Below are positions 4,463-33,646 of a stretch of DNA of 33,653 nt, piece after piece. The position numbers were made by a program, and so were the translations under genes. The notes beneath the pieces were generated by a model. The model worked only from the letters and a program-made list of their open reading frames with translations, made no database searches and had not been told where the DNA came from. The DNA comes from a virus, in the IMG/VR virus record IMGVR_UViG_3300025286_000070, positions 1-33,653 of that record. One strand, given 5' to 3'. Numbering within the stretch: the stretch's first letter is position 1; each line of letters starts with the position of its first letter.

Positions 4463-4753
4463 ATGGCAGTCATCTACAAGATCAACGGCAAGACGGTCAG
4501 CCGTCGCGAGTTCACAAAAAACTCTCGCGGTACGGGGCAGGTGATAATGCCCTATTCACCGTCCCAGGTCATCGTCAGCGAGGGTGCTGCAGTTCATCCC
4601 CTGGACCGCCAGGCTGCCGAGGACCATGCACGCAAACACGGTTTTGCAATCAACTTCGATCAGGAAGGTCGTCCGCATTTCACGAGTCATCGTCAGCAGA
4701 GGGCCTATCTTCGCACGATCGGGATGGTGAATCGGGATGCCTACTTTTCATAA
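4463..4753 (+). CDS. Small conserved-looking phage protein, unknown function
   Basis: This 96-residue protein has TAAGG about seven bases before the ATG, overlapping the previous stop region. The layout is a short beta-like N-terminus (VIYKINGKTVSRREF), then a middle with PSQVIVSEGAAVHP, a helix (RQAAEDHARKHG) and a C-terminal FTSHRQQRAYLRTIGM ending. I remember proteins of this layout (a 'VHP...A..A..HG' core followed by 'F.SR...R..YLR..G...RD.GY') in other tailed-phage structural clusters, always uncharacterised. The basic, compact composition would fit a DNA- or capsid-associated protein, but no function can be assigned. It is followed 32 bases later by the 35-residue basic peptide gene. 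Confidence 0.75.
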   Translation: MAVIYKINGKTVSRREFTKNSRGTGQVIMPYSPSQVIVSEGAAVHPLDRQAAEDHARKHGFAINFDQEGRPHFTSHRQQRAYLRTIGMVNRDAYFS

Positions 4754-4785
4754 AATGTTGACGATCACTCGCCAAGGAGAATACA

Positions 4786-4893
4786 ATGCCACGACACTAC
4801 AAGGGTAAGAAGGGTGCCGCCAGGAAGAAGGCATTGAAGGAACACCGCAGGGCGGTGAGGGGGAAGAGGGCAAAGAGGAAGAGGGTTTACTGA
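4786..4893 (+). CDS. 35-residue hyperbasic peptide
   Basis: This small gene is supported by a strong Shine-Dalgarno sequence (AAGGAGA, 4774-4780) five bases before the ATG. The peptide begins MPRHYKGKKGAARKKALKEH and ends RKRVY. Of 35 residues, 17 are Lys or Arg and only one is acidic. No fold is expected beyond a helix. It could bind packaged DNA, the scaffold's very acidic N-terminus, or RNA. It lies in the structural cluster between the portal region and the scaffold, directly upstream of a structured intergenic region and terminator. The next possible ATG (4893) overlaps its stop as TGATG but opens only a 14-codon frame to 4937. Function is inferred from charge and location only. Confidence 0.7.
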   Translation: MPRHYKGKKGAARKKALKEHRRAVRGKRAKRKRVY

Positions 4894-4904
4894 TGACCAA
4901 GGGG

Positions 4905-4968
4905 GCCGGTGGAATCTCACCGGCAACTAACGGCTGAAACGGAAGTCGCGATCCGTAAGACGCCTTAC
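4905..4968 (+). other. Series of short RNA hairpins upstream of a terminator
   Basis: The gap after the basic-peptide gene can fold into small hairpins. GCCGGTG (4905-4911) pairs with CACCGGC (4918-4924) around a six-base loop. ACGGA (4939-4943) pairs with TCCGT (4952-4956). GTAAG (4955-4959) pairs with CTTAC (4964-4968) around ACGC. The last two share two bases and are alternatives. Such a chain next to a terminator could be a leader, an antiterminator or an RNase-processed spacer. No known riboswitch or RNA family is recognised. Confidence 0.45.
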
Positions 4969-4983
4969 CGTCGTTGCTCGTAA

Positions 4984-5021
4984 GGGGGCCGCGTGGGAAA
5001 CCACGTCGGCCCCCTTTTTTT
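4984..5021 (+). terminator. Strong intrinsic terminator before the scaffold gene
   Basis: GGGGGCCG plus CGTGG (4984-4996) pairs with CCACG, one bulged T, and CGGCCCCC (5001-5014), giving 13 base pairs closed by a GAAA tetraloop. Seven T residues (5015-5021) follow directly. This is a near-ideal factor-independent terminator for plus-strand transcription. It ends only 38 bases before the scaffold start codon. Confidence 0.9.
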
Positions 5022-5059
5022 GTACCAGAGCAGGACGCTCCCTTCGGGGAATTTCAGGA

Positions 5060-6088
5060 ATGCCAGAAGACAACGCGACAACCGAAACAGTTGATGCTCC
5101 CGTCGAGGACGCTCCCGTTGAGGAGACTCCAGTCGAGGAGGCACCGCCGGTCGAGACAACGACCGAGCCGGAAGGCGACATCGTCTCCGAAGAGCCGGCG
5201 ATCAACCAACTCGGCGTCTTTACCGAGGATCCAGAGCCGGAATCGGAACTGGAACCCGAGCCGGAACCCGAGCCGGAACAACAGATCCAGTGGCGCAACG
5301 ACCAGTACGCACTCGGCGCGGCGATGGGCATGTCGGTCGAGGAAGTGCAGTCTTTCGACAGTCCAGAAAAATTCGACCGGGTCATCGGTGGCCTGGTACA
5401 GCGTGCCGCAGCCGCCCGCGCGCAGCAACAACCCGCACAGGGTCAGCAACAACCCGCACAGGGTCAGCAACAACCCGCACAGGGTCAGCAACAACCCGCA
5501 CAGGGTCAGCAGCAACAGCCAGCCGGCGACTACTTCTTCGCGGAACCGGAGGATTACGACGACGGCGTGTTGCAGATGAACGAACATGTCAATCGTCGTT
5601 TCCAGGAGCAGGAACAACGCCTGGTTGCTCTTCAGCAACAGAACCAGGCGATGTACCAGCAGCACCAGATGATCCAGGCCGAGGCGGCTGGCCGGGAGAT
5701 GGATGCCATCATGGACACGATGGACGAAAACCTTTTTGGCCGGGGGCGGTTGAATTCACTCTCGCAGGAACTGGCCGAGAACCGGATCAAGGTCGCGAAT
5801 GCAGCTACTCGCGACGGACAGGTCCAAATACAGAACGGCGAGGAAGTTCCGTCGTTCCAGCAGCTGATTTCACGGGCTGCGAATTCCTTGTTCAGTGATC
5901 AATTCACTAAAAACGCATTGGCGAAGGCGTCGAAACAGTCGCGGAAGGTGGCAGAGCAGTCCTCTGCAGTTCCCACCCGCCAGGAGGACGTTTCGGATCG
6001 TGGCTACGAGGCTGCGATTCGGGCTGCCGCAACCTGGCAACGGGAACATTCCACCCTCGATGACTCGATAGACTCCTTCCCGAGCTAA
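5060..6088 (+). CDS. Scaffolding protein
   Basis: This 342-residue protein lies immediately before the major capsid gene. Residues 1-75 are highly acidic and Pro-rich (long runs of Glu-Pro). Residues about 122-149 are four exact QQQPAQG repeats. About 172-220 is a Gln/Glu-rich coiled-coil-like helix (RRFQEQEQRLVALQQQNQ). The C-terminal third is charged and ends with a short tail. An acidic, extended, helical protein just before the capsid gene is the usual profile of a podovirus scaffold that guides procapsid assembly and is then lost. GGGGA (5047-5050) precedes the ATG. The gene follows a strong terminator, so its transcription must involve read-through or a very close promoter. Confidence 0.8.
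   Translation: MPEDNATTETVDAPVEDAPVEETPVEEAPPVETTTEPEGDIVSEEPAINQLGVFTEDPEPESELEPEPEPEPEQQIQWRNDQYALGAAMGMSVEEVQSFDSPEKFDRVIGGLVQRAAAARAQQQPAQGQQQPAQGQQQPAQGQQQPAQGQQQQPAGDYFFAEPEDYDDGVLQMNEHVNRRFQEQEQRLVALQQQNQAMYQQHQMIQAEAAGREMDAIMDTMDENLFGRGRLNSLSQELAENRIKVANAATRDGQVQIQNGEEVPSFQQLISRAANSLFSDQFTKNALAKASKQSRKVAEQSSAVPTRQEDVSDRGYEAAIRAAATWQREHSTLDDSIDSFPS
5423..5506 (+). repeat. Four perfect 21-base tandem repeats in the scaffold gene
   Basis: The unit CAGCAACAACCCGCACAGGG plus T is present four times without a mismatch, encoding QQQPAQG each time; a partial, altered fifth unit (CAGCAGCAACAGCCAGC) follows. Identity at synonymous sites indicates recent copy-number expansion or ongoing slippage, and the unit length keeps the frame. 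Confidence 0.95.
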
Positions 6089-6103: not shown

Positions 6104-7141
6104 ATGCCTTACCAGGCTGACGACTACACGGATCTCGTAACGACCACGTTGCGGCATCTGGAGAAGAAGACGTGGGCAGACATCGTTGTGGACAATCAGA
6201 ACCACATCGCGATGCCCAAAATCCTGAAGAAGAAGGCGGTTACGTTCGGTTCCGGCTACGGGCACCAGTTCAATGTTCGAGTATTCTCGAACCAGGCTGC
6301 TCGGAACGTGAAACTCAACGAGACCGACAATCCGACGACTGCCGACACGCAGAAGACGGGCAACGTGCCCTGGCGACACTCGGAAACGCACTGGGCACTG
6401 GAAGAACGGATCATTTCGATGAACCGTTCCCCGTCCCAACTGGTCAGTCTCCTGTCAACCTCGCGGGTTGACGCGATGACCGACCTCGCGGAACTGATGG
6501 AGTCGAACTTCTGGGGCGCGCCCAGCAGTTCGTCCGACACGCTCGCGCCTTACGGCGTTCCGTACTGGATCGTCAAGAACAACACGACGGGGTTCAACGG
6601 TGGACATCCGAGTGGGTTCTCCGACGTAGGTGGTTTGAGTCAAACGACATACGCCAGATGGGCCAACTGGACAAGTCAGTATGTTTCGGTCGGAAAATCG
6701 GATCTGATCCGCAAATGGCGCGAAGCTGCGACGAAGACTTCGTTCCGTCCTCCCGTCGATGGTCCGTTCTCGAACACGGGAAACCAGTACGGTTTCTACA
6801 CCGACTACACGGTGCTGGGGACTCTCGAAGAGATCCTGGAATCGCAGAACGACAATCTCGGCAACGATGTTGCCTCGAAGGACGGGGACGTTCATTTCCG
6901 TCGCATCCCGGTCGAGTGGGTGTCGTACTTCGACAACAACAGCGGCACCGTGGACACGACCAACCCGATCTACGGGATTAATTGGGCCGTGTTTAAACCT
7001 TGTTTTCTTTCGGGCGAGTACCTGAAGGAAACCAAGGTCGCACCGCACCCGCTGCACCACAGGACGATCACGCAGTACACCGACTGCACGTACAATTTCT
7101 TCTGCGTCGATCGCCGAAGGAACTTCGTCCTGAGCAAGTAG
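6104..7141 (+). CDS. Major capsid protein (HK97-fold type, inferred)
   Basis: This 345-residue protein directly follows the scaffold, with GGAGGG about seven bases before the ATG. The N-terminus (TTTLRHLEKKTWADIV) is helical. The centre has the mixed alpha/beta composition of a capsid protein, including a long helix after SMNRSPSQLVSLLSTSRVDA and a loop with GVPYWIVKN. The C-terminal region (SGEYLKETKV...) is beta-rich. Length and position fit a HK97-type major capsid protein of a podovirus. I cannot confirm the fold without structure comparison, but no other gene in the window competes for this role. A GC-rich hairpin lies 35 bases after the stop. Confidence 0.8.
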   Translation: MPYQADDYTDLVTTTLRHLEKKTWADIVVDNQNHIAMPKILKKKAVTFGSGYGHQFNVRVFSNQAARNVKLNETDNPTTADTQKTGNVPWRHSETHWALEERIISMNRSPSQLVSLLSTSRVDAMTDLAELMESNFWGAPSSSSDTLAPYGVPYWIVKNNTTGFNGGHPSGFSDVGGLSQTTYARWANWTSQYVSVGKSDLIRKWREAATKTSFRPPVDGPFSNTGNQYGFYTDYTVLGTLEEILESQNDNLGNDVASKDGDVHFRRIPVEWVSYFDNNSGTVDTTNPIYGINWAVFKPCFLSGEYLKETKVAPHPLHHRTITQYTDCTYNFFCVDRRRNFVLSK

Positions 7142-7215: not shown

Positions 7216-7251
7216 ATTGAATCCGCGCTTGGCAGTACCGGGAGATGATTG

Positions 7252-8040
7252 ATGACATCCAACATGCCGTACAAAGACGCATCGAGCGTCCCACTTCAAC
7301 TCAGCCCCAACGTCTGGGGCAACATTCCGCTGCGGTCCTGTGCGTCCCTGATCGGCGGAAATGGCCGAGTGGCCAATCCGATTTCGATGCCTGGGTGTGC
7401 CGCAGCTGGTGTCATGGCCGAGACTGGTGGCGATCTCATCGCTGCCGAAGCGTCGAATACGTCTGCCCTGGCCGCTGCGGATCGCGGCTGGAAGATCACC
7501 CCGGCGAACAACAAGGGTTGGGTACTCGGTTTCCCCAACTGCAACGCCGACTTCACGCAGAAGCGTCGTTGGGGATACGAGGTCTGCTTTTCCCAGGCGA
7601 CTGCTGCGAGCCACGGGTTTGCTGCTGGACTGACCTCGCGTGCGGACGCTGGCGTGGACGCATTCGCAGCGAATACGGTTTTCACTGCCGGCGAAGTGGT
7701 CGTGTCGAACGTGTCGTTCCTTGGATTCCGCAAACCGGAAGACGCCGACATCGACATTCTCTACAAGACTGACGGTTCGGCAATTCCGTCAACCGCAGCC
7801 ACCGGGTTGCACACGACAACCGCCGCGAGCCTGGCTGATGCCACGTTCATCAAGTTGGGCATGAACTGCGACGGACGCAACATCCGGTTCTTCATCGACA
7901 ATGCGCAGATCGGCCTTGCCGTCTCCCTGGACGATGCGTATCTGCCGGCAGAGTCGGATCTGATCCCGATCTTTGCTTTCTACGCCGATGACACAACGGT
8001 TGTCACCATGAGTTGGATGGCATTCGCGGAAGTCAACTGA
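7252..8040 (+). CDS. Probable capsid decoration or minor head protein
   Basis: This protein of 262 residues starts at ATG 7252, with GGGAG (7240-7244) seven bases before it. An in-frame TTG at 7249 adds one residue and is less likely. The protein is rich in Ala, Gly, Thr and Asp with alternating hydrophobic residues. Its C-terminal half reads like a beta sandwich (FIKLGMNCDGRNIRFFIDN then AQIGLAVS), a pattern I associate with concanavalin/LamG-like folds. Right after the capsid gene and before a terminator, the best guess is a protein on the capsid surface. No catalytic motif is seen, and the fold assignment is an inference. Confidence 0.65.
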   Translation: MTSNMPYKDASSVPLQLSPNVWGNIPLRSCASLIGGNGRVANPISMPGCAAAGVMAETGGDLIAAEASNTSALAAADRGWKITPANNKGWVLGFPNCNADFTQKRRWGYEVCFSQATAASHGFAAGLTSRADAGVDAFAANTVFTAGEVVVSNVSFLGFRKPEDADIDILYKTDGSAIPSTAATGLHTTTAASLADATFIKLGMNCDGRNIRFFIDNAQIGLAVSLDDAYLPAESDLIPIFAFYADDTTVVTMSWMAFAEVN

Positions 8041-8065
8041 GTCCTCTCGAAACTCTCTCTGCAGA

Positions 8066-8108
8066 GGGGGGGGTAGGTCAATCACAGCCTGTCCTGCCCC
8101 CCCTTTTT
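8066..8108 (+). terminator. Intrinsic terminator after the capsid cassette
   Basis: A run of seven G, T and AGG (8067-8077) pairs with CCT, G and seven C (8093-8103), including one G-T wobble, around a 15-base loop that itself contains a small ACAG/CTGT stem. Five T residues (8104-8108) follow. It ends four bases before the first possible ATG of the next gene. Confidence 0.85.
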
Positions 8109-10027: not shown

Positions 10028-13000
10028 ATGCCACGTCGATACTCGCGCGAACTGGAATTTCCAGTCGGCGGGATCGTCGAGGGACTGGCCTACGAGGACC
10101 AGCCTCCCAAGACGACCGTTGACGCGCAGAACGTGCGCCCGTTTCCGGCCAGTTCGCCGGATGTTGCCAGCGGTCTCAACTCGAAGTCCTCGGGTCGTGA
10201 CCGGGGTGGCCAGCGAGCGGGGTTGAGCAAGTACAACTCCTCCGCTCACACGACCGATGGCAGGATCCAGGACATCAACCACCTGATCTATCCGCAGTTC
10301 CAGGCGGTGCGGGGACGCGGTCACGCGGTCATGGCTGCCAGCAGTGGCGGGTCTGGCATCCTGGTTGACAATCTCGGTGCCCAGGTCGGCAGCAATCTCG
10401 GTGCTGCCAGCGAGACGTACAACATTTCAGTCTGGGGCCGGGACGGCTACGCCTACCTCGCCACGGTCAACGGTTCTCACCAGATGATTCTTCGCAAGTA
10501 CAACAAGAACGGAACCAACCTCTGGGACTGGACGGCGGATGATTCTCCCGTCATGGCCCTGACATCCGCGACACGACAGGTCCGCGGGATGACTGTCTGG
10601 GGCAACATCCTCTACGTCTGGATCTCGGATATCAGCGGAGTCAACGGTGAGGCGATTTACCGCATCAAGACATCCGACGGGGCAATCGTTGAGACCACCA
10701 GCGGTGACGGTTCCCAGTCGGACTACTGGCTACTTTCCGAGAACCAGAGTACGGCCAAGTTCCAGGATTTTTATCCGTCGAGCGAGAACACGTCGAAAAT
10801 CCAGAACTTGATGGTGTCTGACAGCGGCATGCTGGGCATGGTCGTCGTCAATGACAGCGCAGCCGCTCGACAGGTGAGTACCACCGGAACGACGACTGCC
10901 ACCATCGATGCGACGGCTACCTCGTCTACGGTGCAGACAGCGTTGCGTGGTGTGTCACACCTGGCGACCGATGGCAGCGATGTGCGGGTCAGCTGCACGG
11001 GTGGGCCACTGAATACGGCTGCGGTGATTGCCGAATTCACGGGAACACTCGGGCTGCAGGACGTGGCGATCCTGGTGAAGGGCGGGACCATCGCCGGCAA
11101 TATCACGATCGCCGTGACGCAGACGGGCAACGCCTTCCAGAACACGAAGATGTCGATTACCTGTAATACGGGCAGTGGCAACTTCACGCTGACACACGAC
11201 CAACGGTTGTCACTGCAGATGATGGATATCGCACTCGGCAAACAGATCATGTGCGTCGAGTTGATGTCTTACGCACCCTACGCCTCTGGCCAGGCACCCA
11301 AACAGACCAACCAGGAACTGGACATTGCCTCTGACGGGATGGGCAATTTCTTCACGTTGACGCGGACGATTCCCGACATTGTCGGTGCCGCTTCGACGTT
11401 CAGTCACCAGGTGACGAAAGTTACCGCTGCCGGTGCAGTGTCGTGGACCCAGGCCAGTGCGGGAACAACGAACGGTATTTCCTACGATCCGGTCAATGCC
11501 AGGATCGGTGCGGTTGGCGGCAACGTCTACGGCAGCGGTCACTCGTTTGCGACAATCGCAGTCGCGGACGGGGCCAGGATCAACTCGCAGGATCCGAACA
11601 GTACCACGACGTGGAACGCGATCGATGCTGACGAGGAGGGCGGGTTTCGGATCTTCCGCAACAACGCCAGCGACAACATCGCCCGCATGACCAAGGCGAC
11701 GACTCCAGTTCTTGACTGGGTGGCCAGCCATGGCTCCAACAGTCAACTCGGTGCGACCTGTTCGGCGTCTTACGCCCTGGACATGGAGAATGCCGTTGCC
11801 CAGAGAATGACAAAACGGATTGCCGTTTGTTCCGGGATCGTCAAGGAATTCGATGACGAGAACTGGTACACGGTCGCCAGCGGGGGTGATTTCTCGACGC
11901 CGGCCCTGGACCGGAATGCCCCGGTGATCTTCTCGACGCAACTCGGGCAGAACCTGTTCTTTGCTGACGGCAAGAACATCAAGTACTACAAGGGCCAGAC
12001 GGCGACGATGACGGCCTGGGCGACCACTTCCGGTTCCTTGCCCGTTGACAGCGAGGGCCGGTACGCGACGTTGATCGAGACCTGGCGAGGTCGTGTCGTA
12101 CTCTCGGGAGTCTCGGGAGATCCGCAGGAGTGGTACATGTCGAGGATCAATGATCCCTTCGACTACAACTACTCGCCAACGGTGTTGACCGAGGACCAGG
12201 CGATTTCGGGGACCAACGCTCCCGCGGGGAAATCGCCCGACGTGATCCGCTGTATGATCCCCGTCAGCGAGGACGTGTTGATATTCGGCTGCGATCATTC
12301 GATCTGGCAGATGAGCGGGGATCCGATGCTGGGTGGTCGCCTGGACCGGGTGGCCGAGGGTGTGGGCACGCCGTGGGGTCGTCCCTGGTGCCAGGACTCA
12401 TCGAAGAATTTCTACATCTTCGGCACACGCGGTGGCGTCTATCGCGGCTCGGTCGGACAGGGAATTTCCAAGATCACAACTGGACGCATCGAGGAACGTC
12501 TGTCTGCGATCAACCTCGACACGAACCTGATTCGGCTGGCCTGGAACGAGCGGGAACGCGGGGTGCATGTCTTCGTCACACCGCTGACGGTCGGGGACAG
12601 CAGCGTCGAACATTACTTCTACGACGTGCGAAACGAGTCGTGGTGGATCGACAAGTTTGCCAACACGTCCCACGATCCACGAGCGGTTCACGTCTTCGAC
12701 GGTGACACCGCCAGCGACCGGACGATCCTGCTGGGTGGCCTGGACGGATACCTGCGCAAGTGGGATCTGGCCGCCGCCGACGATGACGGTACGGCGATCA
12801 GCAGTCATGTCTATCTCGGGCCGATTGCTGCGAAGGGACCGGTTGCCGTGCGGGTCAACGAGATACGCAGCGTCGTCGCCAAGGGGTCTGCCAACGTGAC
12901 GATGTCGGTTTACCGGGGAGACAACCCCGAGGACGCCTACAACAGTTCGACGGCGTTTTTCACGTCAACACTTTCAGCCGGCAACAATGCAGCCGAACGC

Positions 13001-13591: not shown

Positions 13592-16500
13592 ATGGGCATC
13601 GTCAATCGCGGCTACGAGCAGTGCCGATTTGTCGATCCCGCGGGTGGCGGTGTCGCCCGCATGCGCCGCGCGCAGAACAACCTGGCTGGAAAACACTCGG
13701 TCCTTCGTGAACTTGGTCTTGGCACGAATGATCCCGAGAAGATCCTGCACTTACTTTCCGAAACGACTGGAGGCGGTTTACTGGTCGAGCGGATCCAGGA
13801 TACGGCCAATCCGACCGCTGTCACGCTGCGAAAGTCCCGCGGTGATCTTGATGCCCAAACGGTTATCAGCAACAACGACAACCTGGGCGACTTTCTCATC
13901 GAGGGCTACGTCGGAGCCAACAACGGTTACGAGACTGTTGCCGACTTTCGTTTCGAGGTCGATGGCAGTGTGTCTGATGCCGCCTACGGCGCACCGATGC
14001 GCATGGTCCTGAAGTTGGCAACCGGCAGCGCGTTGACCGAGCGACTGCGGATCGACAGTTCCGGCAACATGGGCATCGGGACGAGCGATCCGTCCACGAA
14101 GTTGACGGTGGAAGGTGCCGTGACGCTGAAAGAGCAATCCGCAGCCGATGGGGATACTGCTGCATACGGACAAGTCTGGGTGAAAACCGCCACTCCGAAC
14201 CAACTTTATTTCACCACGGATGCTGGTAACGACATCCAGTTGACGAGTGGTACTGCTATTGCTGCCGTTGACACAACCGTAGCGGGTGACAGTGGCTCCA
14301 CGGGAATCACTCCCGGCGACACGCTGACAATTGCTGGTGGCACCAATGTCACCACAGCGATGTCTGGGGACACATTGACGGTCACATCGACCGACACCAA
14401 CACCCAACTCACCCAGGAACAGGTGGAAGACTACGCCGGTGCGCTCGTCGCCAGCGGTGGAACCAAGACCGGCATCTCGGTGACCTACCAGGACGGCACC
14501 GGCGACATGGACTTTGTCATATCTGATCTCACGGTGGCGGGGGATTCAGGTTCCACGGGGATGACACCAGGCGACACGTTAACGATTGCCGGTGGCACAA
14601 ACGTCAGTACCGCGATGTCGGGCGACACGTTGACCATCACGTCAACCGATACCAACACGATGGGATCGGGTTTTATTCTCGAGGATGGTGACGGCACGGA
14701 AGTTACCATCACCGAGAACAAGGAAGTGAAGATCGTTGAAGGGACCGGCATTGATGTCAACTGGACTGACACGAGCAACGGTACGGATGGCGATCCTTAT
14801 GATCTGACGATTTCCTGTGATCTCGAGGGAACAGAACTCAAGTCCACTGGAGAGTCCAGTGGTGTCAAGTTTCTCCGCGAGGATGGTGACGGGACGTGCA
14901 GTTGGCAGGGAATTACTGATGAAGTTGGCATAACCGGCGTATCCATCACCACGGATAGTGGGGCTGGTGCCAAGGCAGCAGATTCGTCGGGCCTGGCCGA
15001 GTTTGATCTTATTGGTGGCGAGGGAATCGATGTCACCAACACATTGCACACAATCACCGTAGCCGGGGAGAATGCGACAACCTCGAACAGGGGAGTTGCC
15101 AGTTTTCACAGTGACAACTTCTCGGTCAGCAGCGGTGCGGTCACGATCAAGGACCAGGGAGTGGTCTATGCGGAGATACAGAATGTCTCGGCAACGGACA
15201 GGATCCTGGGACGGGATTCCTCTGGTGCTGGTGTCATCGAGGAGATCACGCCTGCAAACCTGAGAACGATGCTCAACGTAGCTGACGGGTCCACGGCGGT
15301 GACGACTGAGAACATCCAGGACATCGTCGGTGCGATGTTCGACGGCAACACCGAGACGAGGATAGCCGCGACCTACGAGGACGGGGACGGCACCATCGAC
15401 CTGGTCGTGACTGACATGACTGCCAACACGATGGGATCTGGTTTCGTGCTGGAGGATGGCGATGGCACGGAAGTCACGATCACTGAGAACAAGGAAGTGA
15501 AGTTCGTTGAGGGTGGCGGGATCGACATCGACTGGACCGATGTCACCCCAGGCTCTGATGCTGATCCATTCGACTTGACCTTCACCGTTCCAGATTTGAC
15601 CGTGGCTGGAGACAGCGGATCGACGGGGATGACTCCCGGAGACACGGTGACCATTGCGGGCGGGACCAACGTCACCACGGCAATGTCTGGCGATACGCTG
15701 ACGGTTACTTCGACTGACACCAATACAACTTATTCAGCGGGAGACGGCCTTGACCTCTCAGGAACGACCTTCTCGACCGACCTCAAATCTAACGGTGGAC
15801 TTGTCATTGAGTCCACTGAACTCGCCGTGGATCTTGGAGCATCCTCAGTCACAGGCACTCTTGCGGTTGGTGACGGAGGTAGCGGACAGACTAGCTATAC
15901 CAATGGACAACTCCTCATCGGAAACACCACCGGAAACACCCTCGCCAAGGGGACCCTGACGGCGGGAACCAACGTCACGATCACCAACGGTAGTGGATCT
16001 ATCACCATCGCTTCGGCAGACACGAACACGATGGGATCTGGTTTCGTGCTGGAGGACGGGGATGGCACCGAGGTCACGGTCACCGAGAACAAGGAGGTCA
16101 AGTTCGTTGAGGGTGGTGGCATCGACATCGACTGGACCGATACGAGCAACGGAACAGATGGTGATCCCTACGATCTCACCTTCACGGTTTCAGACACAAC
16201 TGTCGCTGGGGACAGCGGGTCCACGGGAATAACGCCTGGCGACACGTTGACGATTGCTGGTGGTACAAACGTCAGTACCGCGATGTCTGGAGATACCCTG
16301 ACCATCACGTCCACCGACACGAACACGATGGGTTCTGGGTTTGTCCTCGAAGACGGGGACGGTACTGAAGTCGCGATCACCGAAAACAAGGAAGTGAAGT
16401 TCGTTGAAGGTGGTGGAATTGACATCGACTGGACCGATGTTAGTCCTGGCTCTGATGCTGACCCCTACGATCTCACGTTCACGGTTTCTGACACGACTGT

Positions 16501-19201
16501 CGCTGGAGACAGCGGATCCACAGGTATCACGCCAGGCGACACACTGACGATTGCTGGTGGAACGAACGTCACCACGGCAATGTCTGGCGACACGCTGACG
16601 GTCACATCAACAGACACGAACACGATGGGTTCTGGGTTTGTTCTCGAGGATGGGGACGGTACTGAAGTCACCATCACCGAGAACAAGGAAGTTAAGATCG
16701 TCGAGGGGACTGGTATTGATGTCGATTGGACTGATACCAGCAATGGGTCTGACGGTGATCCGTATGATCTCACCATCTCCTGTAATCTCGAAGGGACCGA
16801 AGTAGCGTCAACAGGTGAGGGCGGGGGTAGTAAGTTCCTCCGAGAAGACGGTGACGGGACGTGCAGTTGGCAGACCATCAGCGTTACGGGAATGAGTAGT
16901 TTCTTTCTCGAAGACGGCGATGGAACCGAGGTGGAGATCTCCAACGCCAAGGAAGTGAAGTTCGTCGAGGGAACTGGGATCGACATCGATTGGACGGACA
17001 CCAGTAACGGTACGGATGGCGACCCCTACGACTTGACGTTCACCTGTAACCTGGAGGGCACAGAACTTGTGTCCACCGGAGAGAGCGGGGGCAGCAAGTT
17101 CTTGCGGGAGGACGGTGACGGGACGTGCAGTTGGCAGACCATTAGCGTTACGGGAATGAGTAGTTTCTTTCTCGAAGACGGTGATGGAACCGAGGTGGAG
17201 ATCTCCAATGCCAAGGAGGTCAAGTTCGTTGAGGGTGGTGGCATCGACATCGACTGGACGGACACCAGTGATGGATCAGATTCCGATCCTTACGACCTGA
17301 CCTTTACGGTATCTGACACAACCGTGGCCGGAGATAGCGGATCCACGGGGATCACCCCCGGTGATACGCTCACCATTGCGGGCGGCACCAATGTCACCAC
17401 GGCGATGTCAGGTGACACGCTGACCATTACATCAACAGACACGAACACGATGGGTTCCGGTTTCGTCCTTGAGGATGGCGACGGGACCGAGGTCACGGTC
17501 ACCGAGAACAAGGAAGTCAAGTTCGTTGAAGGCACCGGGATCGACATTGACTGGACTGATACCAGCAATGGCTCTGACGGTGATCCTTACGATCTGACAT
17601 TTACTTGTAATCTCGAAGGGACCGAACTTGTATCCACGGGGGAAAGTGGTGGCAGCAAGTTTCTCCGTGAGGATGGTGACGGCACTTGCAGTTGGCAGAC
17701 GATCAGCGTCACCGGGATGAGTAGTTTCTTCCTTGAAGACGGGGATGGGACCGAAGTCGAAATCTCGAATGCCAAGGAGGTGAAGTTCATTGAAGGTGGC
17801 GGGATCGATATCGATTGGACCGACACCAGCAATGGTACTGATGGCGATCCGTATGACCTGACCTTCACGGTCGCTGACACGACTGTCGCCGGAGACAGCG
17901 GTTCCACGGGTATCACGCCAGGTGACACGCTGACGATAGCGGGTGGAACCAATGTCACGACCGCAATGTCGGGTGATACCCTGACAGTCACATCAACCGA
18001 CACGAACACCACCTACTCGGCTGGGACGTTGCTCGACCTCTCAACCACGACGTTCAATGTGGATTTGACCGAGGCTGCTGAAGCGGTACTAGCCAATGGC
18101 GACTACATCCTGTTCCTCGATGGCGGTGCCACTGGATCGCACGCGAAAGAGGCGATTGCGGATGTGGCAACCCTGTTTGCCGGGGATGGACTGACCGCCT
18201 CTGCGTCGGTCATGGCTGTCAACGTGGATGACTCGACCATCGAGACGAGTTCCGATGCGATCAGGGTCAAGGATAACGGAGTCACCCTGGCCAAGATGGC
18301 TGGTCTTGCGAGGGGGAAGATCATCTACGGAGATGCCAGCGGTGATCCTGCCGCGCTGGCGGTAGGCAGTGCCAATACTGTTCTACAATCTGACGGCACA
18401 GACGCATCGTGGGGGACTGTGGCAACAGCGATGATTGCCGACAATGCGGTTTCTCTCGCCAAGATGGCCGGTATTACCAGGGGCAGCATCATCTACGGTG
18501 ATGCCAGTGGTGATCCAGCGGCTCTAGGTGTTGGATCCAACACCTATGTCCTGACATCCGATGGAACGGATATCGCGTGGGCAGCGGCCAGTGGTGGGGG
18601 TGGGATCTCGTGGGATGGTTCGACCGCACAAGGAGTCGCCACCTTCAAGGACTCAGACGAGGCAACGGTCGAGGCGAACCTCACGTTCGACGGGAACTCT
18701 CTCTTGGTGGTCACCGGCAGTTCGTCAGCAATCCCGTGTACGATCAAGGGCGCGAGCGGTCAGTCGGCTGATTTCCTGGTCGTGGAGAACAGCAGCGGGA
18801 CGGATCAGTTCACCGTCAATAGCAGTGGCCACGTAAATCTGGCGACGGGTAACCTCCGCTTCGAGACAGGTGGAACGAGGGTCATCAACGTCAGGGAGGA
18901 ATCCGGCACGGACACGGCGGGTAAGGATCTCTTCCTCAAGGCCGGTAAGGGAACGGGAACCGGCGAGGGTGGCGACATCCGCTTGTACACGTCACCAGCA
19001 GGAGGATCATCTAATTCAAGTACGAATGCGTGGACCGAGGTGGTAAAGATCCGAAACGACAAGATTGTCGATTTCAAGATCGCGGCACACGCTGATTCTG
19101 GGATGACGCTCCAGGAGGCGCAGACGATGGGTGCGAACCTTTACCTGGAAATCAAGGTTGCAGGGACGCAGTATTATCTGCCGCTGTACGAGGAACCGTA
19201 A
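13592..19201 (+). CDS. Giant repeat-built tail fibre
   Basis: This 1869-residue protein has a fibre-type N-terminal region (residues 1-225: RLRIDSSGNMGIGTSDPSTK then VEGAVTLKE). Next comes a long array of repeated beta modules (about residues 228-1473) interrupted by unique segments such as GRDSSGAGVIEEITPANLRT. The C-terminal region contains two KMAG(L/I)xRGxIIYGDASGDPAAL repeats and Gly-rich fibre segments (GGDIRLYTSPAGG). It ends LYLEIKVAGTQYYLPLYEEP. No Peptidase_S74 autochaperone, lectin or depolymerase signature is visible. It should trimerise into a long receptor-binding or structural fibre. A small acidic gene overlaps its stop by one base and may assist folding. The array is described separately. 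Confidence 0.85.
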   Translation: MGIVNRGYEQCRFVDPAGGGVARMRRAQNNLAGKHSVLRELGLGTNDPEKILHLLSETTGGGLLVERIQDTANPTAVTLRKSRGDLDAQTVISNNDNLGDFLIEGYVGANNGYETVADFRFEVDGSVSDAAYGAPMRMVLKLATGSALTERLRIDSSGNMGIGTSDPSTKLTVEGAVTLKEQSAADGDTAAYGQVWVKTATPNQLYFTTDAGNDIQLTSGTAIAAVDTTVAGDSGSTGITPGDTLTIAGGTNVTTAMSGDTLTVTSTDTNTQLTQEQVEDYAGALVASGGTKTGISVTYQDGTGDMDFVISDLTVAGDSGSTGMTPGDTLTIAGGTNVSTAMSGDTLTITSTDTNTMGSGFILEDGDGTEVTITENKEVKIVEGTGIDVNWTDTSNGTDGDPYDLTISCDLEGTELKSTGESSGVKFLREDGDGTCSWQGITDEVGITGVSITTDSGAGAKAADSSGLAEFDLIGGEGIDVTNTLHTITVAGENATTSNRGVASFHSDNFSVSSGAVTIKDQGVVYAEIQNVSATDRILGRDSSGAGVIEEITPANLRTMLNVADGSTAVTTENIQDIVGAMFDGNTETRIAATYEDGDGTIDLVVTDMTANTMGSGFVLEDGDGTEVTITENKEVKFVEGGGIDIDWTDVTPGSDADPFDLTFTVPDLTVAGDSGSTGMTPGDTVTIAGGTNVTTAMSGDTLTVTSTDTNTTYSAGDGLDLSGTTFSTDLKSNGGLVIESTELAVDLGASSVTGTLAVGDGGSGQTSYTNGQLLIGNTTGNTLAKGTLTAGTNVTITNGSGSITIASADTNTMGSGFVLEDGDGTEVTVTENKEVKFVEGGGIDIDWTDTSNGTDGDPYDLTFTVSDTTVAGDSGSTGITPGDTLTIAGGTNVSTAMSGDTLTITSTDTNTMGSGFVLEDGDGTEVAITENKEVKFVEGGGIDIDWTDVSPGSDADPYDLTFTVSDTTVAGDSGSTGITPGDTLTIAGGTNVTTAMSGDTLTVTSTDTNTMGSGFVLEDGDGTEVTITENKEVKIVEGTGIDVDWTDTSNGSDGDPYDLTISCNLEGTEVASTGEGGGSKFLREDGDGTCSWQTISVTGMSSFFLEDGDGTEVEISNAKEVKFVEGTGIDIDWTDTSNGTDGDPYDLTFTCNLEGTELVSTGESGGSKFLREDGDGTCSWQTISVTGMSSFFLEDGDGTEVEISNAKEVKFVEGGGIDIDWTDTSDGSDSDPYDLTFTVSDTTVAGDSGSTGITPGDTLTIAGGTNVTTAMSGDTLTITSTDTNTMGSGFVLEDGDGTEVTVTENKEVKFVEGTGIDIDWTDTSNGSDGDPYDLTFTCNLEGTELVSTGESGGSKFLREDGDGTCSWQTISVTGMSSFFLEDGDGTEVEISNAKEVKFIEGGGIDIDWTDTSNGTDGDPYDLTFTVADTTVAGDSGSTGITPGDTLTIAGGTNVTTAMSGDTLTVTSTDTNTTYSAGTLLDLSTTTFNVDLTEAAEAVLANGDYILFLDGGATGSHAKEAIADVATLFAGDGLTASASVMAVNVDDSTIETSSDAIRVKDNGVTLAKMAGLARGKIIYGDASGDPAALAVGSANTVLQSDGTDASWGTVATAMIADNAVSLAKMAGITRGSIIYGDASGDPAALGVGSNTYVLTSDGTDIAWAAASGGGGISWDGSTAQGVATFKDSDEATVEANLTFDGNSLLVVTGSSSAIPCTIKGASGQSADFLVVENSSGTDQFTVNSSGHVNLATGNLRFETGGTRVINVREESGTDTAGKDLFLKAGKGTGTGEGGDIRLYTSPAGGSSNSSTNAWTEVVKIRNDKIVDFKIAAHADSGMTLQEAQTMGANLYLEIKVAGTQYYLPLYEEP
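14273..18010 (+). repeat. Modular repeat array inside the tail-fibre gene (A, B, C modules)
   Basis: Three module types recur. A (44 residues, TVAGDSGSTGITPGDTLTIA and following) occurs at 14273, 14528, 15596, 16196, 16493, 17318 and 17879, each 132 bases. B (53 residues, MGSGFVLEDGDGTEV onward) occurs at 14660, 15431, 16031, 16328, 16625 and 17450. A variant B' (52 residues, MSSFFLEDGDGTEVEISNAK) occurs at 16892, 17156 and 17717. C (36 residues, NLEGTE to REDGDGTCSWQ) occurs at 16784, 17048 and 17609, with a diverged copy near 14819. The order from 16031 is B A B A B C B' C B' A B C B' A. Copies are nearly identical in protein but differ at many third codon positions. Confidence 0.95.
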
Positions 19202-31033: not shown

Positions 31034-31221
31034 TAGGCCGACGGGCCGTCTTTGCTCTGGATGAGGACACGCGAGGCGAACGACTCAGCCGCATCGACTT
31101 CGCTGTACACCTTGCCGAACGAACGGTCGAGCATCTGGAGGAAACTGTTGTTCGCCGCCGACGCCTGGGCCAATCGCTCGCCAGCACTCGCTTCCAGCAA
31201 CGCCTGAAGGTCAACTGCCAT
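31033..31221 (-). CDS. Small hypothetical protein
   Basis: This 62-residue protein starts at ATG 31221 with AGGAG and a purine run (AGGAGAAGAACG) just upstream, and overlaps the end of the protease gene by 11 bases. The sequence is helical and amphipathic (LQALLEASAGERLAQASAAN, then NSFLQMLDRSFGKVYSEVDA and FASRVLIQS). It has no hydrophobic stretch long enough for a membrane helix and no catalytic motif. Not recognised with confidence; it sits within the lysis-like cluster. Confidence 0.65.
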   Translation of the reverse strand: MAVDLQALLEASAGERLAQASAANNSFLQMLDRSFGKVYSEVDAAESFASRVLIQSKDGPSA

Positions 31222-32122
31222 CGTTCTTCTCCTGTTTAGGCGCGATCTTCACGCGAATGATCGCCCTGAAGTTCTCGCGCCAGTCCTCAAGTGAAAGTAG
31301 CCGATCCATCAGCACGTCTGTTTTGCCGACCGGCCCCGGATCCCCGCGTGGACCGGGGGGACCGGGAACCGGCGACCGTTTACTAATCGTTGCGACGAGT
31401 TCCTCCAGTTCAGCCACTCGTTGTTTCAGTAACTTGATCTCGCGGGTGCGGTCGATGTCGCCCCAACCGTCCACCAGGGCGACCGGTTTGGCAGCGACCG
31501 GCCTGGACAGGACCAGCCGCGGTCTCGCCTCCTTGAGGAACGCGATGAGTTCGTCGTGTCGGCAACCGTAGACCCACTCGTCATCAACGCCGTGAGTCAT
31601 CACGCTGACGAGATGGTCACCGATGAAGATCCCGCCACCGGAGTTGCCGTTGCGGAATCGACCCACGTTGACACCGAAGACCCAACGGTCGCCGGCCAGG
31701 TTGCTGAATCGTTCGCGGTTGGAGTATCTCAACGCCAGGCGTGTCGGCCCCTTGCCTTCCGGCCACCCGCAGCCGGTGATCGGTCCCGCGGGGACACGCT
31801 GCGGCACCGTCACGAAGTGCAGCGGTTTGCCATCGATCTTGAACAGGCTCAGGTCGCGGGTCTTATCGACGTGGACCCAGCGTGCCTTGCCCTCGGTCTT
31901 GTTGTCGTACCCGGTCCATTCGACTCGTTTGCCCTGGCTGGCGCAGTGGCCGGCGGAAATTCCGTATCCGTCCGCGGTGATGATCGTGCCCGAGCAGCCA
32001 TCGATCGTCACGCTGGCGCGGACCCACCCGGGATCTGCAGCCGTCAGCGGACTGACCAGGATCAGCCAGACAGCCAGGTATCGATGACCTTGAAGGCAAT
32101 TGGCATCAATACGCCCAGGCAC
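31211..32122 (-). CDS. Secreted trypsin-like serine protease with coiled coil and collagen-like segment
   Basis: The protein has about 303 residues from GTG 32122. This start is the best available one giving a signal peptide (hydrophobic YLAVWLILVSPLTAA, likely cleaved near residue 28-30), but it has no clear Shine-Dalgarno and lies 61 bases inside the upstream gene. The trypsin-fold triad is visible: His59 in SAGHCAS, Asp90 in TRDLSLFKID and Ser161 in NGNSGGGIF, with Cys pairs nearby. After the protease domain come a heptad coiled coil (EIKLLKQRVAELEELVATIS) and a Gly-X-Y segment (GPPGPRGDPGPVGK), suggesting a trimeric form. A C-terminal helix follows. It may cleave host envelope proteins at lysis, or defend or mature virions; substrate unknown. 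Confidence 0.7.
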   Translation of the reverse strand: MPGRIDANCLQGHRYLAVWLILVSPLTAADPGWVRASVTIDGCSGTIITADGYGISAGHCASQGKRVEWTGYDNKTEGKARWVHVDKTRDLSLFKIDGKPLHFVTVPQRVPAGPITGCGWPEGKGPTRLALRYSNRERFSNLAGDRWVFGVNVGRFRNGNSGGGIFIGDHLVSVMTHGVDDEWVYGCRHDELIAFLKEARPRLVLSRPVAAKPVALVDGWGDIDRTREIKLLKQRVAELEELVATISKRSPVPGPPGPRGDPGPVGKTDVLMDRLLSLEDWRENFRAIIRVKIAPKQEKNDGS

Positions 32123-32334
32123 GCGGCGATGGTACGCAGTTCCGTTCGCAACTTGGTGATCTGCGTGACCAGCGAGTCGCTGCCGTTGCCGCGGTAGATC
32201 GTGTTGTCGATCGATGTCAATCGCTGCGAGTGACTTTCGAGTGTGCGCCATAGCTGCCCGTCGAATCCATCCTGGCCCAGTTCGGACTTGATCCGCTCTT
32301 CGATTTTCGTGATGCGAATCGCGAGGTCTTCCAT
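32062..32334 (-). CDS. XhlA/holin-like protein (coiled coil plus C-terminal membrane segment)
   Basis: This 90-residue protein has AAGGA about seven bases before ATG 32334. Residues 1-65 form an amphipathic coiled-coil-like region (AIRITKIEERIKSEL, HSQRLTSIDNTIY, VTQITKLRTELRT). One transmembrane helix follows at about 68-88 (TIAACLGVLMPIAFKVIDTW) and a very short tail. This matches the topology of XhlA-type hemolysin/holin-accessory proteins. Together with the protease and the YiiX-like enzyme it makes this operon the probable lysis cassette. Holin function is inferred from topology and neighbours, not from a specific motif. Confidence 0.65.
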   Translation of the reverse strand: MEDLAIRITKIEERIKSELGQDGFDGQLWRTLESHSQRLTSIDNTIYRGNGSDSLVTQITKLRTELRTIAACLGVLMPIAFKVIDTWLSG

Positions 32335-32359: not shown

Positions 32360-32698
32360 TTACTGCTCGCCCATAGTCAATAACAGGGTTTTAACGAGTG
32401 TCGGCAGATCTTCGAGTTGCAGACTTACCAGCCAGGGTTGGTTATCGGCACGGTGCAGCACGATGGCAACCCGGTCCTCTGCGGCGTCGTCAACGGCCCG
32501 GGCGACGACACGCTGCACGTTGATCCTGGAGACACGTTTGACCTCGATCGAGACTCCCGGTTGGCCGACGATGTCGTCGGACTCGTCGGATCGGCCGCAG
32601 AACTGCTGGCTCCGGTGCATTTCGACGCCGAAGATCTCTTCCCAGGCTTTCGCGGCTTCGAGTTCGCCACGCTTACCCTTGTCACGACTATTGATCAT
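32360..32698 (-). CDS. PD-(D/E)XK nuclease, Holliday-junction-resolvase-like
   Basis: This protein of 112 residues starts at ATG 32698, with GGAG about eight bases before it inside the methyltransferase's last codons; a TTG two codons upstream is possible. The order of motifs is NSRDKGKRGELEAAKAW (Glu12/Glu14), RSQQFCGRSDESDDIVG with the candidate metal-binding Asp, and VSIEVKRVSRINVQR with the E-V-K core. It ends PWLVSLQLEDLP. This is the Hjc-like PD-(D/E)XK arrangement seen in small phage nucleases. It would resolve branched DNA before packaging. The stop of the upstream gene overlaps its start by 11 bases. Confidence 0.75.
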   Translation of the reverse strand: MINSRDKGKRGELEAAKAWEEIFGVEMHRSQQFCGRSDESDDIVGQPGVSIEVKRVSRINVQRVVARAVDDAAEDRVAIVLHRADNQPWLVSLQLEDLPTLVKTLLLTMGEQ

Positions 32699-33515
32699 TC
32701 TCAAACTCCATGATGCAACGGCCCAGGAATTCGACGACCTGGGGGACTACTGCGTTTCCGAGTGATCTAAGTCTGTCCACCCGCTTGGGAATCCCATGAG
32801 CCACTCGACGAATTCCGGTGTCAGACTCCCAGACTCCCTGCTCGGCTTCACGACGCGACCGAGCAAGCAATTCTCGGGCACGTTCTCCACCGAGCATCCA
32901 TCCTTGTGATCCCTGCTCGTCGGTGTCGGCCACATCCGCACCATATTTCGAAGATCGCTCCGGCGATTTTTCCCACCTGTTGACCCCACGGCGTTCGCTG
33001 CCCTCGGAGTGGGCCACGATCCAAACCCTATCTCGTCTGTGGCGTGCGCCAACACTGGCAGCCGGTACGCAGTGGTACTCGACACGATAGCCGAGCGAGG
33101 CCAGGTCTCGGAGAACACCTCCGAAGAGTCCCCCTCGTCGTCCCATTGCATCAGTTGCTGAGAGTAACCCCGTGACGTTTTCACCCAGTACCCAACGAGG
33201 TCGGAGTACCTCGCAAATTCTGCGAAACTCGGGCCATAGCCATCGTTCATCGTCTTCACCTTCCTGGCGTCCAGCGTTACTGACCGGCTGGCAAGGCCAA
33301 CCGCCGCAGATCAAGTCTACCGCCCAGTCCTCGACCGGGTCAGGTGGAAATGTTTTCACGTCATCCCATCGCCGGGCATCCGGCCAATGTTTTGCCAGTA
33401 CCTTCTGGCAGAACTCGTCCTGCTCCACCTGCCAGGCGATCTCGAAGTCGGGCGATGCCATTTGCAAACCCAACTCGAATCCTCCAATTCCTGAGAAGAC
33501 GCTGCCCACTTTCAC
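32688..33515 (-). CDS. dcm: DNA (cytosine-5) methyltransferase, Dcm-like
   Basis: This protein of 275 residues starts at GTG 33515, which overlaps the upstream gene's TGA as GTGA; longer in-frame extension lacks support. Conserved C5-methyltransferase motifs are in order: FSGIGGFELGL (motif I, S-adenosylmethionine binding), LICGGWPCQPVSNAG (motif IV, catalytic Cys75), GENVTGL (motif VI), VGARHRRDRVWIVA (motif VIII) and RLRSLGNAVVPQ (motif X). The target-recognition region between VIII and X is short, giving a small enzyme. It would methylate cytosine in phage DNA to evade host restriction; no partner restriction enzyme is seen. From residue about 89 to 256 the same DNA carries a second protein-like frame. 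Confidence 0.88.
   Translation of the reverse strand: MKVGSVFSGIGGFELGLQMASPDFEIAWQVEQDEFCQKVLAKHWPDARRWDDVKTFPPDPVEDWAVDLICGGWPCQPVSNAGRQEGEDDERWLWPEFRRICEVLRPRWVLGENVTGLLSATDAMGRRGGLFGGVLRDLASLGYRVEYHCVPAASVGARHRRDRVWIVAHSEGSERRGVNRWEKSPERSSKYGADVADTDEQGSQGWMLGGERARELLARSRREAEQGVWESDTGIRRVAHGIPKRVDRLRSLGNAVVPQVVEFLGRCIMEFENDQ
32747..33250 (-). CDS. Overprinted second frame inside the methyltransferase gene (WPTP-type protein)
   Basis: This 167-residue reading frame is in +1 relative to the methyltransferase. A purine-rich AGGAAGGTG (33257-33265) lies six bases before its ATG; a GTG at 33259 is an alternative. The protein reads as an ordered sequence, not as a shadow: SFAEFARYSDLVGYW, SEVFSETWPRSAIVSSTTAY, RLPVLAHATDEIGFGSWPTP, MWPTPTSRDHKDG, then GSLTPEFVEWLMGFPSGWTD. 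I recognise the 'TW.RSG...RLP', 'WPTPTxRD' and 'WVEWLMGFPxGWTDL' elements from proteins found near phage C5-methyltransferases. The function is unknown. Alternative: the frame is preserved only because motif X and its surroundings are conserved. Confidence 0.55.
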   Translation of the reverse strand: MNDGYGPSFAEFARYSDLVGYWVKTSRGYSQQLMQWDDEGDSSEVFSETWPRSAIVSSTTAYRLPVLAHATDEIGFGSWPTPRAANAVGSTGGKNRRSDLRNMVRMWPTPTSRDHKDGCSVENVPENCLLGRVVKPSRESGSLTPEFVEWLMGFPSGWTDLDHSETQ

Positions 33516-33646
33516 GCCTCGCCCCCCGCGATCGCCTTGTACGCCGCGGCGAACTGTTTGAACAATTGCTCGCGGTTGAATTCGTTCATTTCGCACAGTT
33601 TCTGCCAGCCGACACGTTTGGTCGCGGCCATGATCTGTTCGTCCAT
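33512..33646 (-). CDS. Small helical protein upstream of the methyltransferase (possibly 5'-incomplete)
   Basis: This 44-residue frame runs from ATG 33646, just after AGGACA at the window edge, to a TGA overlapping the methyltransferase GTG. The sequence is helical (MDEQIMAATKRVGWQKLCEM, NEFNREQLFKQFAAAYKAIA). The frame is still open at the window end, so the true start may be further upstream. No family is recognised; the GTGA overlap argues for coupled translation with the methyltransferase. Confidence 0.55.
   Translation of the reverse strand: MDEQIMAATKRVGWQKLCEMNEFNREQLFKQFAAAYKAIAGGEA

Follow-up and report, generated by a model that had tools for sequence, protein, structure and literature searches.

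A putative structured RNA ending at a terminator before the scaffold gene of uncultivated phages: a possible moron-like unit

The short segment preceding the scaffold gene in the window, by which we mean the whole stretch of DNA analysed here (a viral record of 33,653 bases), may be a moron-like unit, made up of a promoter, a structured RNA and a terminator, that a possibly temperate phage has acquired within its head-gene operon. We put the probability of this reading at roughly 45%. It fits best the combination of an own promoter-like site, a conserved RNA, a terminator, absence from relatives and a neighbouring open reading frame (ORF) that is replaceable. In the proposed mechanism, a host-type promoter that lies before a small basic ORF or overlaps its start would give a short transcript whose last ~123 nt would be the conserved structured RNA, ending at the strong terminator before the scaffold gene. 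The product could be a small RNA of the phage or the 3′ end of a very short mRNA, and its synthesis would not depend on the late operon; it could be made, for example, in a prophage. After release, the RNA could refold from hairpins plus terminator into a 26-bp rod. Antitermination would be needed for late transcription to get past the terminators at 4984–5021 and 8062–8108. From sequence comparison we infer transcription from the promoter-like site, a temperate life style, action in trans and refolding, as well as an insertion, rather than a loss, of the RNA unit.

Table 1. Features of the segment and its surroundings (window coordinates)
Feature	Position	Strand	Remarks
Promoter-like site TTGACG-18-TACAAT	4758..4787	+	10/12 consensus positions
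Small lysine/arginine-rich (basic) ORF	4786..4893	+	35 aa; ends TGA, overlapping ATG in TGATG
14-codon frame plus stop	4893..4937	+	starts in TGATG; present, not conserved
Conserved structured RNA (putative)	4899..5021	+	~123 nt, ending at terminator; fold and comparison
Segment A (AAGGGGGCCGGTGG)	4899..4912	+	5′ arm of P1 plus 5′ extension; extension repeats terminator 5′ arm; pairing with terminator 3′ arm possible
Hairpin P1 (segments A:B)	4905..4924	+	8 bp; 4905–4912 with 4917–4924
Core, hairpin P2	4932..4964	+	33 bases; GGC/GCC, AACGGA/TCCGTW, loop AGTCGCGA
Hairpin P3	4963..4985	+	CCTTAC/GTAAGG
Intrinsic terminator (segments C:D)	4984..5021	+	13 bp, T5006 bulged, GAAA loop, T7 tract
Remnant GAGCAGGACGCTCCC	5028..5042	+	read from sequences
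Scaffold gene	5060..6088	+	no family match
Major capsid protein gene	6104..7141	+	phrog_9953 (major head protein), E 3.9e-10
Second strong terminator	8062..8108	+	−29.3 kcal/mol; just 3′ of ORF 7249–8040, which comes after the capsid gene

Fold of the segment and its terminator

The terminator is predicted from both of its usual marks, a GC-rich hairpin and a U tract directly after it. Its 5′ arm, GGGGGCCGCGTGG (4984–4996), is joined by GAAA (4997–5000) to the 3′ arm CCACG-T-CGGCCCCC (5001–5014), and the T7 tract (5015–5021) lies 38 bases (5022–5059) before the scaffold start. The sequence-only reading had described a structured segment with a GAAA-capped, 13-bp terminator and a T7 tract at just this distance from the scaffold gene, and we confirm it base by base. 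In a fold-based scan the terminator (−31.8 kcal/mol) heads the seven candidates in the window at −14 or better; a simple terminator scan of the window does not list it, probably because of the bulge. The terminator stem, followed by 6–9 T, is present in all ten carriers of the RNA.

The 128 bases from 4895 to 5022 fold at −63.3 kcal/mol, compared with −45.4 ± 3.9 in dinucleotide shuffles (z −4.6, 0/200). Most of this excess comes from the terminator: once it is removed, the remainder (4895–4982) folds with a weak excess (z −1.6, 17/200 shuffles). Three small hairpins had been proposed upstream of it. P1 alone of these is found in the centroid fold of the window sequence by itself, whereas P2 and P3 rest on comparison with relatives, for which the support is thin. 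Across the variants the local fold of P1, P2, P3 and terminator pairs 97.6% of cells, and the P2 loop is invariant. No pair of this fold is changed on both sides among six sequences; P1 has an A.C mismatch in 3/6, the middle pair of P3 is broken in L005, and one pair of P2 is broken in the window. On each side, P3 has one base less in the window and L003 than in L006, L008 and L051.

Conservation and distribution among relatives

Relatives were collected as 43 loci by capsid protein, with 12 further viral loci and one locus from a cellular genome bin (L075–L087) added by capsid alignment. The interval between the gene for a 96-aa protein (g96) and the scaffold gene was examined in 35 of the 43; eight loci that start too late or have no recognised 96-aa gene (L002, L004, L013, L014, L026, L039, L042 and L043) were left out. 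The RNA is found in seven of the 35 (L003, L005, L006, L007, L008, L018 and L038) and not in the other 28, nor in any of the 13 loci from the capsid alignment, so that with respect to its relatives the window appears to carry an insert in the operon, as a moron does. The 41 relative records without the RNA all span the interval, and several of them are near-identical to one another. A search of IMG/VR with the core pattern gives nine contigs, the seven carriers plus L051 and L053, with one exact core match each and, as in the window, always at this locus. L053 equals the window letter for letter over the stretch of the element compared, and 3273/5490 positions agree over their whole overlap when aligned ungapped, a count that does not allow for indels. 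Carriers among the 35 have capsids 89–93% identical to that of the window, and non-carriers with the interval at most 86%.

The six distinct variants have a mean column identity of 92% in the alignment. Between the window and L005, L006, L008 and L051, respectively, the RNA agrees at 111/125, 111/124, 115/128 and 116/127 positions (89–91%), whereas fourfold-degenerate sites agree at 17/35, 13/33, 19/34 and 19/34 in g96 (39–56%), at 33/82, 35/85, 34/84 and 33/84 in the scaffold gene (39–41%) and at 99/148, 77/145, 82/144 and 11/27 in the capsid gene (41–67%). For the nearest variant, L003, the RNA is 97% identical and fourfold sites 66–79%. The 33-base core is identical at 32 or 33 of 33 positions in all pairs compared (32/33 between the window and the four diverged variants), and is more conserved than the repeats that flank it. 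Conservation so far beyond that of fourfold sites in the neighbouring genes argues that the structured segment is not a chance one, and suggests strong selection on the bases of the RNA.

A covariance model finds no further clear copy in the loci searched, from which L034 and L035 were left out, their intervals being only 22–24 bases. Weak matches in L027, L028, L030, L031 and L044 (10–18.5 bits) are mainly to the terminator after the post-capsid gene, as read from the model alignments and the L030 sequence; the remaining weak matches are in L009, L011, L012, L013, L029, L032, L064 (at 11514), L068, L073 (at 3562), L083 and L084. Matches on the opposite strand, of up to 28 bits, are put down to the symmetry of the inverted repeat.

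Rfam 15 gives no match in the window at gathering score, and the best score in a permissive search of 4700–5080 is 17.2 bits, where the cut-off is 191. With the RNA as query, BLAST returns no match among 50,697 phage and 72,556 plasmid records, and the exact core pattern does not occur in 84,980 cellular genomes. Beyond the nine known contigs, viral pattern matches (L062, 16 from another pattern, and L104) were taken as chance; the covariance model gives nothing above 14.5 bits on these 18, the 14.5-bit match in L092 being another terminator, with a similar match in L100. When the core was compared for complementarity with 18 start regions, two had p < 0.05, where about one is expected (mononucleotide shuffles), which gives no convincing target. 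The sole match of the capsid alignment in a cellular genome is a contig labelled Deltaproteobacteria from a metagenome-assembled genome (L075), which is 67% identical and without the RNA; the match is too weak for naming these bacteria as host.

Promoter-like sites, small ORFs and operon setting

For the promoter-like site of the window, transcription is predicted to start at ~4794, inside the basic ORF, and a transcript of ~228 nt running to 5021 would not include the start codon of that ORF. Since the site overlaps this ATG, its transcript could not use that start. The consensus scan has a background of 3.0 matches on average in shuffles of 12 kb, both strands counted. Scanning up to 900 bases upstream of the scaffold gene, we find a sigma-70-like site in all six RNA-bearing loci tested (the window, L003, L005, L006, L008 and L038), each time between the 96-aa gene and the basic ORF and 226–260 bases before the terminator stem. 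The other five carriers have TTGACA-17-GANNNT, to which the site of the window is unrelated in sequence, and the −10 elements of the relatives are poor (3–4 of 6). Among 27 loci without the RNA, 24 have no promoter-like site; L031 has a weak one, and the near-identical L076 and L078 have TTGACA-17-TATTTT in the same gap. That such a site occurs where the RNA is absent suggests that the promoter may do no more than supply the basic ORF and the scaffold gene.

Consensus scans of the 38 bases before the scaffold gene reveal nothing promoter-like, in agreement with the earlier remark that they leave little room for a promoter. The sequence-only reading had gone on to propose a controlled read-through point, a less likely reading that forms part of the first alternative below; the promoter-like site upstream of the terminator in 6/6 loci suggests instead that the element may be an independent transcription unit and not a place where late-operon transcription reads through.

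Upstream of the basic ORF, L003, L005, L006, L008, L038 and L051 share a nearly invariant block of 24 bases, ATGTCATTGACACCGTAACGGTTT, which is absent from the window. The block contains two adjacent 11-bp dyads, TGTCATTGACA and ACCGTAACGGT, over the −35 region; it looks like an operator, and has one match each in the eight matching records of 20 searched. Occurrences of a promoter 16-mer in 17 further viral contigs were taken as chance, another 16-mer having given 16 non-carriers.

Small basic ORFs occur at this place in many relatives, and their sequence type differs even between the close relatives L008 and L038. These two have the same RNA (the first 123 bases are identical) and differ in the type of basic ORF between promoter block and RNA, apparently through a recent cassette exchange. 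The basic ORF is thus exchanged while the RNA stays, and to judge by this comparison the conserved part is RNA and not peptide; that a neighbouring peptide gene has been swapped and the RNA kept makes the RNA the likely product under selection. The 14-codon frame, which had been proposed as a control element, does not hold up in this role. Its counterparts have 12 codons in another frame in L003, 22 codons in L005 and 13 codons with a different start in L006, and there is no ATG at its place in L008, L038 and L051. Leader-peptide attenuation is therefore unlikely: the conserved short frame overlapping the first pairing segment that an attenuator of this kind requires is missing. Three carriers (L008, L038 and L051) have a second small basic ORF, which separates the terminator from the scaffold gene; the remnant GAGCAGGACGCTCCC of the window belongs to the end of this ORF, and is found with one base changed in L003 and L006.

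The name scaffold comes from the sequence-only reading, and the position of this gene upstream of the major capsid gene agrees with it. The ten ORFs scanned also gave a weak match to a portal family (SU10_portal, 21.9 bits, where the cut-off is 30) and one to phrog_38407, a family of unknown function. In the L008 contig the second strong terminator has a counterpart at the corresponding distance past the capsid gene (on the minus strand of L064, with its T tract at 11592). A strong terminator also comes immediately past the capsid gene of the L016 contig (L066 at 9370). Late transcription in this phage group thus seems to meet terminators within the head operon, which suggests that antitermination or a resistant polymerase may be involved. 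A tyrosine integrase gene is seen in one relative, on the L008 contig (L063:2125–3450, minus strand; phrog_1, E 8.5e-31), and not in the window; it makes a prophage stage plausible for the group, which is possibly temperate.

Several other features of these contigs were noted. The scaffold gene contains four overlapping copies of a 42-base unit with 21-base spacing (5412–5516), giving glutamine-rich repeats in the translation. An ORF of 1869 aa (13592–19201) has internal repeats, such as seven copies of 135 bases and five of 300, and its Pfam matches are all below cut-off. On the minus strand the window encodes a C5 cytosine DNA methylase (32688–33596, E 6.3e-40) and a trypsin-like peptidase (31211–32251, E 1.3e-7). 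The L008 contig also encodes an FGE-sulfatase domain protein (L063:11702–12865) and an enoyl-CoA-hydratase-like protein (L063:10529–11095; phrog_1128, moron/AMG category).

Alternative pairing and competing explanations

Segment A repeats C, the 5′ arm of the terminator, and B resembles D, its 3′ arm. In an alternative fold A pairs with D and B with C, and in L005, L008 and L051 the two loops pair as well. The resulting rod has up to 26 pairs in the six variants, with 96.8% of cells paired and at least two pairs missing in the window and L003. As modelled, the local fold and the 26-bp rod are mutually exclusive, and each can form in all six variants. The complementarity of the 5′ and 3′ segments goes beyond chance: their duplex energies are −42 to −48, compared with −23 to −25 in shuffles, and were reached by 0 or 1 of 1000. 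Most of the rod pairing follows from the repeat, since P1 and the terminator share stem sequence. Two independent hints of a functional rod come from the sequence of A and its partner: (i) the extension AAGGGGG, which is outside the P1 stem yet matched to the 3′ end of the terminator (one base differs in L006) and (ii) one rod pair that is changed on both sides, G–C in the window, L003 and L006 and A–U in L005, L008 and L051.

The covariation in relatives that had been looked to in support of the hairpins is thus missing from the local fold and appears, for this one pair, in the A:D half of the rod. When the 3′ letters were shuffled by column, the share of paired cells was reached in 22/500 shuffles, the number of cells changed on both sides in 22/500 and the covariation score in 13/500, whereas the number of pairs changed on both sides was reached in 241/500; none of six slid versions of the rod has such a pair. 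The scaffold tree (ultrafast bootstrap 60) can account for the double change by a single event, whereas the concatenated gene tree (92), with which the g96 (59) and capsid (80) trees agree, requires two events, or a change and its reversal. In computed forced folds the rod is the more stable form by 7.3–9.9 kcal/mol in L005, L008 and L051, and the local fold by 2.1–2.6 kcal/mol (2–3 when rounded) in the window, L003 and L006.

This geometry is the basis of the best-surviving alternative, a terminator/antiterminator leader of the scaffold–capsid operon. The promoter would drive the scaffold and capsid genes through the leader, with the terminator on when A:B and C:D form and off when B:C and A:D form, and the choice would be set by a ribosome ending the basic ORF, by a protein or by another RNA. 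Several observations are consistent with such a leader. The basic ORF stops 5–7 bases before the GGGGG of A in 10/10 carriers; the repeat allows the 26 pairs, with a duplex energy beyond that of shuffles; the double change entails an A.C mismatch in P1 and a G–U in the terminator; and the promoter-like site of L076 and L078 would feed the scaffold gene directly. Against it, the only covarying pair supports A:D and most B:C pairs do not vary, the shuffles and the scaffold tree leave room for chance and a single event, and A:B is computed to be preferred before D is made, unless A is masked. The short leader frame is also not conserved, and in three carriers another ORF intervenes between terminator and scaffold gene. 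The earlier suggestion of antitermination or attenuation thus stands in so far as an attenuator-like swap of partners between the upstream hairpin and the terminator is possible, but not with the 14-codon frame as its control. Because of this geometry, and because L076 and L078 have a promoter-like site but no RNA, a leader stays a strong rival to the moron-like unit, although we regard it as doubtful.

A bolder proposal, which we consider rather improbable, is that the segment represents a new phage RNA family acting as a strand-exchange switch. Hairpins of the same sequence would convert through a four-way junction into a long rod, and the balance between the two, tuned between lineages, would set either read-through into the capsid operon or how stable and active a small RNA made by the prophage is.

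It is quite unlikely that the element is a plain insulating terminator whose upstream structure is a put-like or nut-like signal, or a protein site, letting a modified late RNA polymerase pass. The other strong terminators (at 8062–8108 and in the L008 and L016 contigs) and the invariant P2 loop would agree with this, but the RNA stands directly before a terminator of its own, a search with the covariance model reveals no second copy close to the other terminator, and the L016 contig has its terminator without such an RNA. Still less probable is a processing site, at which RNase III or another enzyme would cut the rod or the terminator hairpin and so separate the upstream mRNA from the scaffold–capsid mRNA: all six variants could form a rod of at most 26 bp, but such a site needs neither an invariant core nor a T tract. 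A mobile or recombination element (a MITE-like inverted repeat or a linker for gene exchange) instead of an RNA is scarcely credible, since in spite of imperfect terminal inverted repeats and an adjoining ORF that differs in type between close relatives, the element has a single exact core match at one locus in 9/9 contigs and the window, and its internal core is more conserved than its repeats.

Trp-type transcription attenuators work by 1:2, 2:3 and 3:4 pairing. As in these, hairpin 1:2 of our segment shares sequence with terminator 3:4, partners can be exchanged and an ORF ends just upstream; unlike in these, no conserved leader peptide overlaps the RNA and the only covarying pair supports 1:4. 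The put RNA of phage HK022 has a length of ~70 nt and two stem-loops, and its action reaches even terminators 10 kb or more away (PMC9378689). Our segment is likewise a structured phage RNA downstream of a promoter (here a promoter-like site), but is fused to its own terminator; the two are set apart by description, not by sequence. As a putative short phage-encoded non-coding RNA it also resembles VpdS, PreS and OOP (PMC12197685). It differs in having no Rfam match and no known Hfq dependence or target.

Phage morons carry their own promoter and terminator. As a rule they are independently expressed, and the ant moron lies in the late operon of P22-like phages, where in P22 it includes the antisense RNA sar (PMC2629481). 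If the segment described here is transcribed, the head-gene cluster of uncultivated phages contains a strongly conserved structured RNA of which our literature search found no recognisable description, and its paired hairpin/terminator design, with a lineage-specific balance, provides a model, open to direct test, of how an RNA refolds at a terminator. It would differ from the ant moron in that the conserved product is a putative RNA, that no gene of known function is present and that independent expression is predicted. Like the ant moron, it is a unit that, in a comparison of relatives, looks like an insert in an operon of the phage.
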